Source: an uncultured Rhodobiaceae bacterium
GTDB taxonomy: Bacteria > Pseudomonadota > Alphaproteobacteria > RS24
Reading direction: 5' to 3'
Length of the DNA stretch: 52,994 nucleotides
Assembly: GCA_913051715.1 (NCBI GenBank)
Contig: CAJXCG010000003.1
Span: 1-52,994 of the forward strand
A program made the position numbers and the translations under genes. Below are positions 22,926 to 35,619 of the stretch, piece by piece. Positions within the stretch are counted from its first letter, which is position 1; every line of letters begins with the position of its first letter. Below the pieces are notes generated by a model, which was not told the DNA's origin, did no database searches, and saw only the letters and a program-made list of their open reading frames with translations.

Positions 22926-24152
22926 TCACTCGGCCGCCCGCGCGTCGATAAATGCCTTCAGCCCGTCGTAAAATGCGTGCGTCTGGTCGTCATGAACCGC
23001 TACCCAGTCTGCTTCCCACGCGCTGGCGCGGGCAACCACGAGGTCGCGTGCGGGGTCGATGTAAAGGCTCTGGCCGCGGCTTCCATCGGCTTGAAACGCG
23101 CCATCGGCAAATGTCCACCAATGCAAGCCATAACCTTTGCGCCAGTTTTTATCGACTTTGCCATGGGCCAGATGCGGCGCGCTTGTGGTGGTCGCACCGG
23201 AAATCCAGCTATCGGATAAAAGCTGCGTGCCGTTCCAGCGCCCCCCTTGGCTGATAAACAGGCCGAAGCGCGCCCAGTCGTCGAGCGCGGCATTAAAAAA
23301 AGCGCCACCAATCTCGCGCCCGTTTGGCCCCGGTCGGTCGATCACCCAAAACGCATCATGCGTCATGCCGAGCGGTTGCCAGATTTTGGCCGACATGAAA
23401 TCGGCGGCAGACATTTTTGTTACGCGGGTCAGCAATTCGAGAAGGATCTGCGTTTCGGCTGTATTATAGTTAAAAACCGTGCCGGGCCGCGCCGCGCGCG
23501 GGTGGGCATGTGCCGCTTCAAACGCCGTTTTATTGTTCAAAACAACAGCGTTGAGTATAAAATTAATCGTGTCTTGGCTGGAATTATTGGCGCGGTCGTC
23601 AAATTGGATGCCCGACGACATTTGTAGGGCGTGCTTTATGGTGACGCCTGCATAATCGGTTTGGGCAAGCTCGGGCAGATAGGTTTCCAGCGGGTCGTTT
23701 ATATCAGCAATGAAACCGTCTTCGACGGCAAAGCCGATCAATGTTGACACAAAGGATTTAACCAGCGAATAGCTGGTAAAATGACTGTGCGGCCCGCTAC
23801 CCGCAGCATAATTTTCATACACAATTTTGCCCTTATGCAGGACGATCAGGCCAAGCGTTTCCATGTCGCGCATCATATTGTCGAGCGTGCGCGTTTGGCC
23901 TTGGAAGCTGTATGCGAAGCCGTTCAGGAAATTCGGGTCGCGTTCAAGTCTGGCGCTTTGCGCGCCGCGCGCGACGACACGGGTGGGAAATAATTCGCTG
24001 GTATTTTTTGCTGTCCAGACAATCTGATCTGTGTCGGTCAGGGCAACATAGCGCGCGATCACATCATGCGGCGGTAAAAACCGTGCAGTCAGTCCGATAA
24101 TCGCCAGCGCACCCAAAATGGCGGCGAATAAAATTTGTGCGATGCGCTTCAT
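22926..24152 (-). CDS. Beta-lactamase-family serine hydrolase, N-terminal signal/anchor
   Basis: SxxK motif in 'FTSYSLVKSFVSTLIGFAVEDG', 'YNTAETQILLELLTRVT', 'GRSQSLYIDPARDLVVARAS'-like C-terminus. Confidence 0.88.
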   Translation of the reverse strand: MKRIAQILFAAILGALAIIGLTARFLPPHDVIARYVALTDTDQIVWTAKNTSELFPTRVVARGAQSARLERDPNFLNGFAYSFQGQTRTLDNMMRDMETLGLIVLHKGKIVYENYAAGSGPHSHFTSYSLVKSFVSTLIGFAVEDGFIADINDPLETYLPELAQTDYAGVTIKHALQMSSGIQFDDRANNSSQDTINFILNAVVLNNKTAFEAAHAHPRAARPGTVFNYNTAETQILLELLTRVTKMSAADFMSAKIWQPLGMTHDAFWVIDRPGPNGREIGGAFFNAALDDWARFGLFISQGGRWNGTQLLSDSWISGATTTSAPHLAHGKVDKNWRKGYGLHWWTFADGAFQADGSRGQSLYIDPARDLVVARASAWEADWVAVHDDQTHAFYDGLKAFIDARAAE

Positions 24153-24250: not shown

Positions 24251-24982
24251 TTATTCGCTTATAAATTCAGCGACGTTTTCGGTGGAGCCAGCAGCAATAG
24301 CGCTTTGGCCCATAATTGCACCGAGTTGGGTGCCGGCGCGGTTCATTTTGTTCTGGAACTTTTTCCAGTCATCCGTGCGCGTGGCCTTTTCGATCCAATT
24401 TTCATATTCGGCACGGCTTTCGTAAAGCGCGACCAAAATATGGGTTACACCCGCAGGTGCCCCTGCGCGCGTTGCAGCCAAAAAGGCACTGCCGGGAGCC
24501 GTTTTCCCCGTCTCGGAGGCCCGCCATTCCTGCATGGCGCGTACGGCCAGCGCGGGATTGGTAATGTTGAAATTATACGCCGTCCATTTGTTCAAGCCTG
24601 AGGAGGCTTCCCCATAGGTGCCGATGATGGCGTAATAGGTTGAGCCGAGATACTGACCAACGCCATTGAGCTTGCCGACAAATTGGGCAAACGCTTGATC
24701 GTTCACGCGGGCGTCCATTGTAGCTTCGGCTGCCGACGCGTCTTTGTAAAACACGGCAAAGTCATGAGTGGCGGGCGAGGCATCCATTTGGAACTGGTTG
24801 ATGTAGACAGCACCCGGCTCCCCACCTTTAAACATGCTCGGCGTGTCATAGGCGTTGAACGCCTCAACGACTTGGGCTTCTTTGCCCGGCTCAAACGCCC
24901 ATTGGTGGGAGATAAGAACCGGCGTGGCCAGCGCGCTGGTGGCAGCAAGACAACCTGCGAATATGGCTGAAATAAGTTTCAT
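24251..24982 (-). CDS. Secreted uncharacterised protein, predicted tandem dimeric alpha/beta-barrel-like domains (paralogue of 27265..28002)
   Basis: Signal peptide MKLISAIFAGCLAATSALAT; halves share 'THDFAVFYKDASAAE..' and 'THILVALYESRAEYE..'. Confidence 0.65.
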   Translation of the reverse strand: MKLISAIFAGCLAATSALATPVLISHQWAFEPGKEAQVVEAFNAYDTPSMFKGGEPGAVYINQFQMDASPATHDFAVFYKDASAAEATMDARVNDQAFAQFVGKLNGVGQYLGSTYYAIIGTYGEASSGLNKWTAYNFNITNPALAVRAMQEWRASETGKTAPGSAFLAATRAGAPAGVTHILVALYESRAEYENWIEKATRTDDWKKFQNKMNRAGTQLGAIMGQSAIAAGSTENVAEFISE

Positions 24983-25149
24983 GTACTTTTCCTTCAAAGA
25001 TTTGGGTTACGGGCAAATGCTATGGAAACTATTGGAAGCGAAAAACTCCAAAAAAAATGCGATTGGTCGGCGCCTTAGTCCGTCCAATTTCTCTTACAGC
25101 GCATAGTCGGCGCTGACAGGGGCTTTTCTTTCTGGCGTTAAGCGCAAGC

Positions 25150-25578
25150 TTATTTGGCTATATACACATCATGCGTCAGCGTTCGGTTTGCTGCGTCAAA
25201 CACGATTTTATCCAGATTTTGTGTGCCGTCATTAATTCTGAACAAAACATGCATGACGAATTTTGTGCCGTTACGATAGTAAGAGCCGGCGCCCGAGCCT
25301 AATGCGAGCGTGCCATCTTTCAGCGCGCCGCGACCTTCGCCCATGACGAGGCCACCTTTGCCATTGGCATCCGGCGTTAAAATATAGGTGAGGTAAACCC
25401 GACCATATTCGCCCATTGACCCTTCGGCACTTATTGTGCCGCTGGTCGGGGTAAGGTTGACGGAGGTTATATTCATCGGTGTGCTGGCTTGGCGCTGCTT
25501 GAAGGTGATGGATGTGTCGTCGGCAAGCGCGGCGCCGGTCATGCAGGTTACGAACAAGGCGATGAGTAGGTGTTTCAT
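25150..25578 (-). CDS. Secreted hypothetical protein
   Basis: Signal peptide MKHLLIALFVTCMTGAALA; no recognised domain in 'SITFKQRQASTPMNITSVNLTPTSGTISAEGSMGEYGRVYLTYIL...'. Confidence 0.6.
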   Translation of the reverse strand: MKHLLIALFVTCMTGAALADDTSITFKQRQASTPMNITSVNLTPTSGTISAEGSMGEYGRVYLTYILTPDANGKGGLVMGEGRGALKDGTLALGSGAGSYYRNGTKFVMHVLFRINDGTQNLDKIVFDAANRTLTHDVYIAK

Positions 25579-25774
25579 AATTTTCTCCCGAGCTGTCTTG
25601 AAGCTGGGTTCAGCCTTGCTGTCTGACCCAATTTTGTTAAGCCCAAATAAATTGGGTTTGGCAAAAGTTCGGCCTCACCATGCGCGCTCGCGTGCGTTGG
25701 CGGCATGTAATTGGCTTGCCTCCGATGAAACACTGCGATTAACTAAACATGTAGTTTGCTGAGGGGAGGCAATC

Positions 25775-27178
25775 ATGGATTACAAGTTACTTATTAACGG
25801 GCGCCTTGTGGATGGCGCTGGTACAATGCCGGTTCTCAATCCGGCGACCGAAGAGGTTTTGGCCGCGTGCCCGACCGCATCGGAAGCGCAACTCGATGAG
25901 GCGGTGGAGGCTGCCCAGGCTGCGTTCACCAGTTGGAAAAATACCACCATTGAAGAACGCCGCGCCAAATTGGGTGAGATCGCGGATATTATTGATGCCA
26001 ATAGCGAAGAACTGGCCCGCACACTTACGCAGGAGCAGGGCAAGCCGCTGGCTGATGCTATGGGCGAAATTGCGGGCGCGGCTTTGTTCTTCCGCTATTT
26101 CCAATCGCTCGACTTGCCGGTTGAAGTGCTGGAAGACAGCGACACACAACGGGTCGAAATTCACCGCAACCCGCTGGGTGTGATCGGTGCAATCATTCCG
26201 TGGAATTTTCCAATCATTTTGCTGGCGTTCAAAATGCCCGCCGCGCTTCTGGCCGGCAATTCGATTGTCATTAAGCCGGCCCCGACAACGCCTTTGTCGG
26301 CTTTGCATTTGGGTAGGCTGATTGCCGATGCCCTGCCGCCCGGTGTGGTCAACATCATTGCTGACAATAATGATCTGGGTGACAAGATCACCACGCATAA
26401 GGGTATCAGCAAAATTTCGTTTACCGGATCCACCGCGACGGGTGCACGGGTTATGGCTTCGGCCGCCAGCACGCTGAAGCGCATTACGCTGGAATTGGGC
26501 GGCAATGATGCCGGTATTATTATGGATGATGTCGATGTGGAGGCGGTTGCGCCGCAAATTTTCGACGGTGCGTTCGGTAATAATGGTCAGATCTGCATCG
26601 CCATGAAGCGCGTTTACGCCCATGAGTCGATTTACGACAAGCTGGTCGAACAGCTTGCCAAGCTCGCTGAAGAAGCCATTGTCGGCAATGGTCTGGAGCA
26701 GGGCACGCAACTGGGGCCGCTGCAAAACAAAATGCAGTTTGAGAAAGTCAAAGACTATATCGAAGACGGTCGCGCCAATGGCACGATTGTCGCCGGTGGC
26801 GATGTGCCGGAAGGCAAGGGGTACTTCATTCCGCCTACGATTGTACGCGATATTGACGATGACAGCCGACTGGTCAAAGAAGAACAGTTTGGCCCGGTTC
26901 TGCCGGTCATCAAATATGATGATGTCGACGAGGTTATCGCCCGCGCCAATGATTCCGATTACGGTCTTGGCGGATCGGTTTGGTCTTCAGATATTGATCG
27001 TGCTTACGAGGTCGCCAAAAAAGTCGACAGCGGCACTATTTGGGTCAACAAACATGCCGATTTGCAGCCGCATGTGCCGTTTGGCGGTATCAAAACATCG
27101 GGGATTGGCACCGAACTTGGCGTGGATGGCTTGAACGAGTTCACCCAACGCAAAGTCATTAACGTCGCCAAAGGCTGA
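25775..27178 (+). CDS. NAD(P)-dependent aldehyde dehydrogenase
   Basis: 'ITLELGGNDAGIIMDDVD', 'GQICIAMKRVYAHESIYD', 'IPWNFPIILLAFKMPAALLAGN', 'EEQFGPVLPV'; GGGGAGG RBS. Confidence 0.94.
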   Translation: MDYKLLINGRLVDGAGTMPVLNPATEEVLAACPTASEAQLDEAVEAAQAAFTSWKNTTIEERRAKLGEIADIIDANSEELARTLTQEQGKPLADAMGEIAGAALFFRYFQSLDLPVEVLEDSDTQRVEIHRNPLGVIGAIIPWNFPIILLAFKMPAALLAGNSIVIKPAPTTPLSALHLGRLIADALPPGVVNIIADNNDLGDKITTHKGISKISFTGSTATGARVMASAASTLKRITLELGGNDAGIIMDDVDVEAVAPQIFDGAFGNNGQICIAMKRVYAHESIYDKLVEQLAKLAEEAIVGNGLEQGTQLGPLQNKMQFEKVKDYIEDGRANGTIVAGGDVPEGKGYFIPPTIVRDIDDDSRLVKEEQFGPVLPVIKYDDVDEVIARANDSDYGLGGSVWSSDIDRAYEVAKKVDSGTIWVNKHADLQPHVPFGGIKTSGIGTELGVDGLNEFTQRKVINVAKG

Positions 27179-27216
27179 GCGCGCAGCGTTAGGTTAAATA
27201 TTGTATCGAAAAATGT

Positions 27217-27249
27217 GAGACACCCGGTCGCCCGGGTGTCTCATTATTT
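27217..27249 (+). terminator. Rho-independent terminator after the aldehyde dehydrogenase (possibly bidirectional)
   Basis: GAGACACCCGG-tcg-CCCGGGTGTCTC stem followed by ATTATTTTT, between convergent genes. Confidence 0.8.
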
Positions 27250-27264
27250 TTGCTCAATTTTTTC

Positions 27265-28002
27265 TTAGCGCATGCTGCTTAAATCGGACGAACCAAATTT
27301 CACCGGGCTTCGTGTCCAGTTGGTTCCCAAAATTGTCCGGTACTCGGCCAAGGCCGAGAAATCACGAACAAAAGTGGGGTCTGAGGCTGATTGACGGTTG
27401 AAATTCATGCCTTCAGCAAAGCTGTCATTTGCGAAAACAACAATATGCGACGCGCCCGGAGGGCCACCGGCAACAACCTGCCAAATATCAAATCCGCCCG
27501 GCAGACCGGCCATGACATCATTTTGCATCAGCTTGTCGAGTGCGCCCAGATAACCTGCCGGATTGGAAACCGACATCAAGCTCACCTGATAAGTGTCCGT
27601 GTCCTTTGGGTGTTTCCCATAGCCTTTCACATGCGTGTAGACAACTTCCGCGAGAAGATCGCCGGACGCATTGAGGGCTTTGCGGAAACGATCAAACTCT
27701 TCCGAATTTGCGAGGATGGCGGAATTTGCATCGAAGTCCTCGGCTTTGTCGTAAACCACAGCAAAAGAATGTGTCGTGGGATTATCGCCATTTGCCGTAT
27801 GCACGACAAACCACATTTTTCCCGGAAACTTGCTGAATGTTTCCGATTGGGTGAATTTTTCGATCGCGGCGACAAATTTTTTCTCGTTTTGCGGTTCGAC
27901 ACGCCACGAATAGTCAATCCACATGACTTGGGCTTGAGCGGCGCCGACAAATAAAATGCACGACGCGAAAAAGGCCGAAATAATGGTCTTAAGTTTTGAC
28001 AT
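27265..28002 (-). CDS. Secreted uncharacterised protein, paralogue of 24251..24982
   Basis: Signal peptide MSKLKTIISAFFASCILFVGAAQA; 'NPTTHSFAVVYDKAEDFDAN...NSEEFDRFRKALNASGDLL' aligns with 'SPATHDFAVFYKDASAAEAT...NDQAFAQFVGKLNGVGQYL' of the paralogue. Confidence 0.65.
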   Translation of the reverse strand: MSKLKTIISAFFASCILFVGAAQAQVMWIDYSWRVEPQNEKKFVAAIEKFTQSETFSKFPGKMWFVVHTANGDNPTTHSFAVVYDKAEDFDANSAILANSEEFDRFRKALNASGDLLAEVVYTHVKGYGKHPKDTDTYQVSLMSVSNPAGYLGALDKLMQNDVMAGLPGGFDIWQVVAGGPPGASHIVVFANDSFAEGMNFNRQSASDPTFVRDFSALAEYRTILGTNWTRSPVKFGSSDLSSMR

Positions 28003-28173: not shown

Positions 28174-28707
28174 ATGCGAGGACGAGTGCTTGCCATATTT
28201 GGCATGTTGATTGTGAGTGGTGTGGTTTTAACCGCGCCGAAAGAGGCCCATGCCCTGACAAATGATGAAAAGATAGCGTTGGCAAAATCAGCCGCGCCAA
28301 GTTTCATTAGCGACAAGGCTACGGTTTTGGATGAAGCGGGCAAGGTGTTGTCCAAAGGCAGCAATGGCTGGACGTGCAATCCGGGCGTGCCGCCCAAATA
28401 TGAAAATCCCATGTGTAATGATGCGATCTGGCAAGAACTAATGGCCGCGCTCAACGCCAAGAAACCGTTTAGTACGGATACGCTCGGGTTTTCATATATG
28501 CTGCAGGGCGATGCACCGATCGACAATGACGATCCGTATAACACGGATCAATCAAAGGGCTCGTGGGTCAAAGAAGGCCCGCATATTATGATTGTCGGGC
28601 CCAAGGGAAGCGTTGATAAAATCTCAAGCAGTTTCGAGAGCGGCGACCCTTACGTCATGTTCAGAGGCACTGACTACGAACACATTATGTTGCAAATCTC
28701 GCGGTGA
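28174..28707 (+). CDS. Secreted hypothetical protein
   Basis: Signal peptide ending APKEAHA; 'SKGSNGWTCNPGVPPKYENPMCNDAIWQELMAALNAKKP...GFSYMLQGDAPIDNDDPYNTDQSKGSWVKEGPHIMIVGP'. Confidence 0.65.
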   Translation: MRGRVLAIFGMLIVSGVVLTAPKEAHALTNDEKIALAKSAAPSFISDKATVLDEAGKVLSKGSNGWTCNPGVPPKYENPMCNDAIWQELMAALNAKKPFSTDTLGFSYMLQGDAPIDNDDPYNTDQSKGSWVKEGPHIMIVGPKGSVDKISSSFESGDPYVMFRGTDYEHIMLQISR

Positions 28708-34609: not shown

Positions 34610-35098
34610 ATGCCGCGTTTATGGTTCATTTTTGCTTTGTTGTTTGCTGCGCCCGCCGCGGCGGAGTCCTTGGGTAATCTTGCCCAATATCCGCCGTCGA
34701 AAATTGACCTGACGATAACCACGGCCGACGACGCGATGCCCAAAATCGAGCCGGCGGAGATTAAGCTGCTGAGCGGACGATATTACCGCTTGACCATTAA
34801 TTGCCCTGATGTGCGCGACGACCTCTCAGGCTGGCGCATTGAAATGCGGCAATTATTGAATAATTCCCATCTGCGACTGGTCACGGTGGGCGACATTGAA
34901 GTCCACTTGCAGGGGCTCAGTTTTAACGCCATCGAATGTGACGAGATCGGCGCCGCGCATGTGAGCTTTGTGCCTATTAAGCCCGGCACATTTCCGTTTT
35001 ATGTTGGCAATGTGCCGCTTGCCGTAGGTCGGCCAATCGGCGAAAGCGGCGTGCAAGCCAAAGGCAAATCCGTGTTCGGCAAGTTTGTCGTTCAGTAG
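34610..35098 (+). CDS. Secreted cupredoxin-like hypothetical protein
   Basis: Signal peptide ending APAAAE; 'PAEIKLLSGRYYRLTINC...LSFNAIECDEIGAAHVSFVPIKPGTFPFYVGN' resembles a cupredoxin core. Confidence 0.55.
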   Translation: MPRLWFIFALLFAAPAAAESLGNLAQYPPSKIDLTITTADDAMPKIEPAEIKLLSGRYYRLTINCPDVRDDLSGWRIEMRQLLNNSHLRLVTVGDIEVHLQGLSFNAIECDEIGAAHVSFVPIKPGTFPFYVGNVPLAVGRPIGESGVQAKGKSVFGKFVVQ

Positions 35099-35619
35099 CT
35101 CGGCCCGCGGGCATCCAGCAGGCTGCGGCCTTTTTCATCCATGAGTTTTTCGGCGGCGCTCCAGCTCAACGGCAACTGGTCGACGCTGACACTGGCTGTA
35201 AACGAGCGACCATCGGCTACCGAATTCATCGCCTCCATAATTGCCGTGTCGTGAACATCGCCGAAAATAAACTGGCTTAAAGCCACGCGGTCTTCCCAGA
35301 CCGTCATCGTCCACGCTTCGCCGGAAAACAGCCGAAGCCGCAATTTATGTCCCAGATATCCTTTATTTTCCGCCAGCGTGTCGACCACGCGCTGGTTGTA
35401 ATCCCAGAAGCGTTGCGCTTGGGCGCGATCTTTTTGCAGCACTACATGGGTGACGCTGACAATGACGCTTTGCTCGGCGGGCAGGGCTTTCAGCGCATCA
35501 GATTTGGTGAAGGGCTGGCTGACATAAATGCAGCCGCTCAACCACACGCCCAGCGCGACGACAAACATTGTCCGGCATACTGTGTGCCGCTTCCGCCTAT
35601 GATAAACGCAACCACTCAT
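35092..35619 (-). CDS. Putative lipoprotein with a predicted antibiotic-biosynthesis-monooxygenase-like alpha/beta domain
   Basis: Lipobox-like 'ALGVWLSGC'; 'ENKGYLGHKLRLRLFSGEAWTMTVWEDRVALSQFIFGDVHDTAIMEAM' resembles ABM-type domains. Confidence 0.5.
   Translation of the reverse strand: MSGCVYHRRKRHTVCRTMFVVALGVWLSGCIYVSQPFTKSDALKALPAEQSVIVSVTHVVLQKDRAQAQRFWDYNQRVVDTLAENKGYLGHKLRLRLFSGEAWTMTVWEDRVALSQFIFGDVHDTAIMEAMNSVADGRSFTASVSVDQLPLSWSAAEKLMDEKGRSLLDARGPSY

Follow-up and report, generated by a model that had tools for sequence, protein, structure and literature searches.

Two predicted tandem alpha+beta barrel proteins of an uncultured Rhodobiaceae bacterium represent a lineage-restricted family of probably exported proteins

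The locus considered here raises the question of what two similar, apparently secreted proteins encoded 2.3 kb from each other in a catabolic neighbourhood are, how they arose and what they might do. Both genes lie within a stretch of 52,994 nucleotides of an uncultured marine Rhodobiaceae bacterium of the PS1 clade (contig CAJXCG010000003.1), hereafter the window. They are not adjacent, being separated by two other genes, and a third copy of the family is present in the same genome on a different contig. The initial annotation gave the coordinates of both genes correctly but left their minus strand unstated; the plus strand is broken by stops at both positions. All of the motifs that it quoted were found in the translations of the two proteins, P0001 and P0002, whose features are as follows:

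24251..24982 (stop codon included), minus strand: gene 1, encoding P0001 (243 aa), predicted exported tandem alpha+beta barrel protein (sequence, homologues, model)
24926..24982, minus strand: probable signal peptide of P0001, residues 1-19 (..TSALA|TPVL), by inspection; AxA kept in relatives
24605..24925, minus strand: predicted N-terminal ferredoxin-like half of P0001, residues 20-126 (E22-30 H35-44 E58-61 E73-79 H82-108 E109-123; model and profile match)
24254..24604, minus strand: predicted C-terminal ferredoxin-like half of P0001, residues 127-243 (E132-140 H143-155 E164-173 E181-187 H190-216 E217-224), with the family-invariant His181 (model, alignment and profile match)
27265..28002 (stop codon included), minus strand: gene 2, encoding P0002 (245 aa), predicted exported tandem alpha+beta barrel protein (sequence, homologues, model)
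27931..28002, minus strand: probable signal peptide of P0002, residues 1-24 (..GAAQA|QVMW), by inspection; A22 and A24 invariant in closer relatives
27610..27930, minus strand: predicted N-terminal ferredoxin-like half of P0002, residues 25-131 (E27-34 H37-51 E62-69 E78-84 H87-113 E115-129; model and profile match)
27268..27609, minus strand: predicted C-terminal ferredoxin-like half of P0002, residues 132-245 (E137-145 H148-159 E169-178 E186-192 H195-220 E222-236), with the invariant His186 (model, alignment and profile match)

Inspection of the N-termini revealed in each protein a hydrophobic stretch with an A-x-A cleavage motif at its end, a motif that is conserved in relatives. This agrees with the signal peptides originally proposed and suggests, from sequence features, that P0001 and P0002 are exported via a Sec-type signal peptide.

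The two proteins had been described as alignable over most of their length, and BLASTP bears this out (238 aligned columns, 26% identity, E 5e-21). The internal repeat that had been proposed for each of them was less apparent from single sequences: the halves of P0001 matched each other weakly (E 4.5e-4), those of P0002 did not match significantly (E 0.53), and the best values obtained in this way among some family members ranged from 3e-4 to 4.5e-4. When profiles of the N-terminal and C-terminal halves of the family were compared, a colinear match of 102 columns was found (E 2.4e-12, score 68.9). None of the controls produced a match (the best of 40 column-permuted profiles scored 16.7 and the reversed control 12.7), and the repeat is visible in the structural models described below, which together uphold the original proposal.

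The N-terminal halves of the two subfamilies matched each other with an E-value of 1.6e-20 and the C-terminal halves with one of 2.2e-17. Both values are better than that of the N-terminal versus C-terminal comparison, which indicates that the internal duplication predates the split of the paralogues. The profile comparisons therefore support the order of events suggested initially, i.e. duplication within the gene followed by duplication of the gene. In the phylogenetic tree, P0002 clusters with members from three genera (g1, g3 and g4). P0001 and the third copy are placed in separate deep clades, some of the branches being weak or long. Moreover, in the nearest relative that carries both genes (G002), the orthologues of P0001 and P0002 are located on different contigs and have different neighbours. 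The gene duplication is thus old and dispersed, and the paralogues are old copies subject to differential loss rather than products of a fresh local duplication.

The opposite explanation, that an ordinary secreted protein was recently duplicated in place and that the repeat is a low-complexity or chance artefact, might be prompted by the short distance between the two genes and by the weakness of the half-to-half matches in single sequences. We consider it hardly credible, since it is ruled out by the failure of the permuted and reversed profile controls and by the deep separation of P0001 and P0002 in the tree; the repeat seen in both models and the location of the G002 orthologues on different contigs also speak against it.

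AlphaFold2 models were built from an alignment of the window proteins and related loci. According to DSSP, each model is composed of two beta-alpha-beta-beta-alpha-beta halves, both in P0001 (mean pLDDT 74.8, pTM 0.75) and in P0002 (mean pLDDT 82.3, pTM 0.78). The top Foldseek match for both was PDB entry 2PGC (TM 0.80-0.82 by target length, E about 1e-10), which superposes with an rmsd of about 3.1 A over about 210 columns at about 9% identity. Other matches were likewise tandem ferredoxin-like proteins, putative monooxygenases among them: 3MCS, 3F44, CT0912, the anthrone oxidase-like 5F9P, PenE, sulfur oxygenase reductase and chlorite dismutase/HemQ. Judged from these models, P0001 and P0002 almost certainly belong to the alpha+beta barrel (ferredoxin-like) superfamily and adopt its tandem-fused fold, as the initial annotation had predicted; a single non-repeated domain is not what the models show. 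Superposition on 2PGC and other structures implies that the two predicted halves may close into one 8-strand barrel per chain (type 1 or type 2 packing). Barrels made of two fused domains have been documented before (PMC4835899), and the architecture as such is already known; what is new is the probably exported, lineage-restricted family.

His186 of P0002 alone is invariant throughout the wider alignment, whose 19 members extend down to 15% identity. Well-conserved His columns occur only in predicted strands (H78, H124 and H186 of P0002), and no helix contains one. The polar residues D30, H124 and D172 of P0002 are conserved in most members but missing from the P0001 subgroup, and a catalytic site shared by the whole family is therefore unsupported by conservation.

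These residues also bear on the possibility that the family consists of exported haem proteins related to chlorite dismutase, HemQ, DyP peroxidase or the IsdG-type haem oxygenases. Chlorite dismutase, HemQ and DyP have in common with P0001 and P0002 the same tandem architecture of two fused ferredoxin-like domains (PMC4835899), and chlorite dismutase and HemQ chains were frequent among the Foldseek matches (E 1e-7 to 1e-5). However, their fit to the models is only moderate (TM about 0.45-0.60 and rmsd 5-9 A, compared with about 0.8 by target length and 3.1 A for 2PGC). In the chlorite dismutase, HemQ, DyP and IsdG-type haem barrels the axial His is located within a helix (PMC4835899, Table 2), whereas the family has no conserved helix His, its conserved His residues being placed in predicted strands. 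Membership in the haem barrels, which we regard as improbable, was rejected because this His is missing.

How widely the family occurs was assessed in several genome samples. In the order to which the window belongs it was found in 14 of 28 genomes, with 1-5 copies in each. The class sample yielded three further matching genomes, two of which fall into a second alphaproteobacterial order, where 12 of 18 genomes (small, about 1.0-1.4 Mb) contain the family, while the third is the sole carrier in its own order (1/5). In the phylum sample (399 genomes) the family was not found beyond the window's own genome, and no relative was detected in viral contigs. A profile scan with a narrower alignment retrieved ten named loci labelled PS1 clade, Rhodobiaceae, Phyllobacteriaceae or plain Alphaproteobacteria, several of them PS1 clade or Rhodobiaceae. 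As sampled, the family is restricted to a small number of alphaproteobacterial lineages whose genomes are mostly small.

The surroundings of the two genes in the window are devoted mostly to CoA-dependent and oxidative catabolism; acyl-CoA ligases, an aldehyde dehydrogenase, an acyl-CoA dehydrogenase and an enoyl-CoA hydratase were named by inspection. The closest neighbours are the following:

22926..24152, minus strand: membrane-anchored serine hydrolase, Beta-lactamase (PF00144, Pfam E 5.9e-35), 98 bp downstream of gene 1
25150-25578, minus strand: small secreted protein matching no Pfam family, between gene 1 and gene 2
25775-27178, plus strand: aldehyde-dehydrogenase-like gene, between gene 1 and gene 2

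A further small protein without a Pfam family, exported or membrane-anchored, is encoded at 28174-28707 (plus strand), and its gene is kept beside the P0002 orthologue in G002 (locus L078).

The PF00144 hydrolase is a possible operon partner of gene 1, and the third family copy also has a PF00144 gene beside it, which it follows (G000:C112, 442-1632, plus strand). One might accordingly regard the barrel protein as an accessory partner of the neighbouring serine hydrolase. Only four PF00144 genes were found in the genome (assembly of 1.67 Mb, 93% complete). Of the three family genes, two have one of these four as their direct neighbour, in both cases on the same strand and about 100 bp away; every genus member that has the third paralogue (four in all) retains the pairing there. 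We nevertheless think a dedicated partnership quite unlikely. The G002 orthologue of gene 1 has no PF00144 neighbour, the hydrolase orthologue being located on another contig, and no such pairing was seen around P0002 or in genera g3 and g4. In addition, the two hydrolases are of different types, one membrane-anchored and the other without an obvious signal, and the pattern was spotted post hoc.

In other genera, a TauD/TfdA dioxygenase gene is located near the family gene in three loci of g3 and one of g4, and in g4 genes for Liv-type ABC transport and acyl-CoA ligases are found nearby as well. Several g4 loci (L086, L091-L093) also have the family gene flanked by a cupin and a 139-aa membrane protein without a Pfam family, beside the Liv-type ABC genes.

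A more regular arrangement was observed in the second order (loci L112-L117, L120-L122 and L090). In all of the loci whose neighbours were read, the family gene is located directly upstream of a same-strand MFS transporter gene, and it is usually preceded, with short gaps, by 1-4 copies of a gene for a second secreted protein. Within the same 20 kb there are genes for a TonB receptor, a Rieske ring-hydroxylating oxygenase, a cupin and a glyoxalase-type protein, sometimes accompanied by an amidohydrolase or a limonene-epoxide-hydrolase-like protein. This gene order could have been kept by recent common descent, as the genomes that provided the cluster are related members of a single family, and the TonB/MFS/Rieske cluster is absent from the window. 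At both ends of one contig (G779:C13; loci L118 and L119) the same family gene and the start of the MFS gene are found, which suggests an assembly overlap or a circular contig rather than two copies.

The second secreted protein ('CKLNEG..', 'WNWC..') has no match in Pfam or NCBIfam. Its homology to the P0001/P0002 family is unsupported (profile E 0.043, probability 1.2%). An internal repeat in it is weakly supported (E 1.3e-4, 33 columns), and it may be another tandem barrel.

Taking the fold class together with the transporter and oxygenase context, we tentatively propose that the family takes part, in the periplasm, in the uptake and catabolism of organic solutes, either by binding small molecules or as cofactor-free enzymes, a reading that we place somewhat short of an even chance. 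Relatives of this fold carry out isomerisation, oxygenation or hydrolysis. On the proposed model, mature P0001 and P0002 would act in the periplasm after removal of the signal peptide, and the barrel or its clefts would hold a small organic molecule. This molecule might (i) be received from uptake across the outer membrane and handed on to a carrier in the inner membrane, or (ii) undergo one cofactor-free step (by analogy, isomerisation, oxygenation or hydrolysis), whose product would feed the surrounding catabolic genes. The divergent copies, of which a genome has 1-5, would then differ in ligand. For the two window proteins themselves, we infer the periplasmic site, the handling of a ligand and the link to catabolism. 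The variation of the family's neighbourhood between genera counts against this interpretation, as do the lack of the second-order cluster in the window and the possible common descent of that gene order.

The non-catalytic half of our preferred reading may also stand on its own: the proteins could be pure periplasmic carriers devoid of enzymatic activity, e.g. for a hydrophobic or aromatic solute beside TonB and MFS transport. A carrier would be in keeping with the in-line position of the family and MFS transporter genes in the second order, with the presence of several divergent copies (up to five) in one genome and with the lack of a catalytic residue set conserved across subfamilies. On the other hand, His186 is invariant in 19/19 aligned members and would be unneeded for a mere hydrophobic cavity. 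We consider a pure carrier possible, though rather unlikely.

Alpha+beta barrels are usually cytoplasmic dimeric enzymes. We speculate, with considerable reserve, that marine alphaproteobacteria with small genomes employ the secreted tandem barrels as a dedicated periplasmic component of organic-solute acquisition. The system of one order would comprise a TonB receptor, an MFS carrier, a Rieske oxygenase and as many as five secreted proteins (one family member plus 1-4 of the second type, possibly tandem-barrel), with barrels replacing the usual extracytoplasmic solute-binding proteins. A family without a Pfam or NCBIfam name is maintained at 1-5 copies in genomes that are under pressure towards reduction, and its conserved placement between transporter and oxygenases in one order offers a testable case for the recruitment of alpha+beta barrels to periplasmic solute handling in marine bacteria. 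The most interesting lead lies outside the window, in the cluster of TonB, secreted-protein, MFS and Rieske genes of the second order.

The absence of a named family, as claimed at the outset, holds: P0001 and P0002 gave nothing above the cut-off in Pfam or NCBIfam, and searches of Pfam, NCBIfam and PDB sequences with single proteins and family profiles returned no confident family. A search of the literature on the P0001/P0002 family, 2PGC or DUF6854 found nothing. The label 'ABM/EthD-like' does not apply at the family level, as neither ABM (PF03992) nor EthD (PF07110), which share the superfamily fold with P0001 and P0002, appeared in the Pfam scan of the two proteins up to E 10.

Across 21 family members, the sole sub-threshold Pfam signals of this fold were NIPSNAP (PF07978), matched weakly in six members (best E 0.0021) and in neither P0001 nor P0002, and DUF6854 (PF21614), matched weakly in nine (best E 0.0056). 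For the latter, whose cut-off is 27 bits, P0001 scored 15.5 bits and P0002 gave no match. Both signals fall into the same strand-helix motif region, with scores, where given, below the curated cut-offs. The two Pfam models span about 100 positions, i.e. one domain, in contrast to the tandem-fused and probably exported proteins described here.

Two other proteins gave signals of a similar kind. One, encoded beside a G002 family member (L075, 7760-8401, minus strand), is apparently two-domain, with sub-threshold matches to DUF6854 (E 7e-4) and NIPSNAP. The other, encoded in the window (35092-35619, minus strand), combines an N-terminus resembling that of lipoproteins with a weak match to DUF3291 (E 0.0036); it may consist of one alpha+beta barrel domain and could be a further exported superfamily member.

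The closest known structure remains 2PGC, a protein released in 2007 whose record title gives no function. Family profiles reached no relevant solved structure among the PDB sequences and did not retrieve 2PGC at E up to 10, and the link is therefore purely structural. The single chain of 2PGC covers both halves of both models, and this protein originates from a marine metagenome (jcvi_pep_1096685590403), the family to which P0001 and P0002 belong being marine as well.
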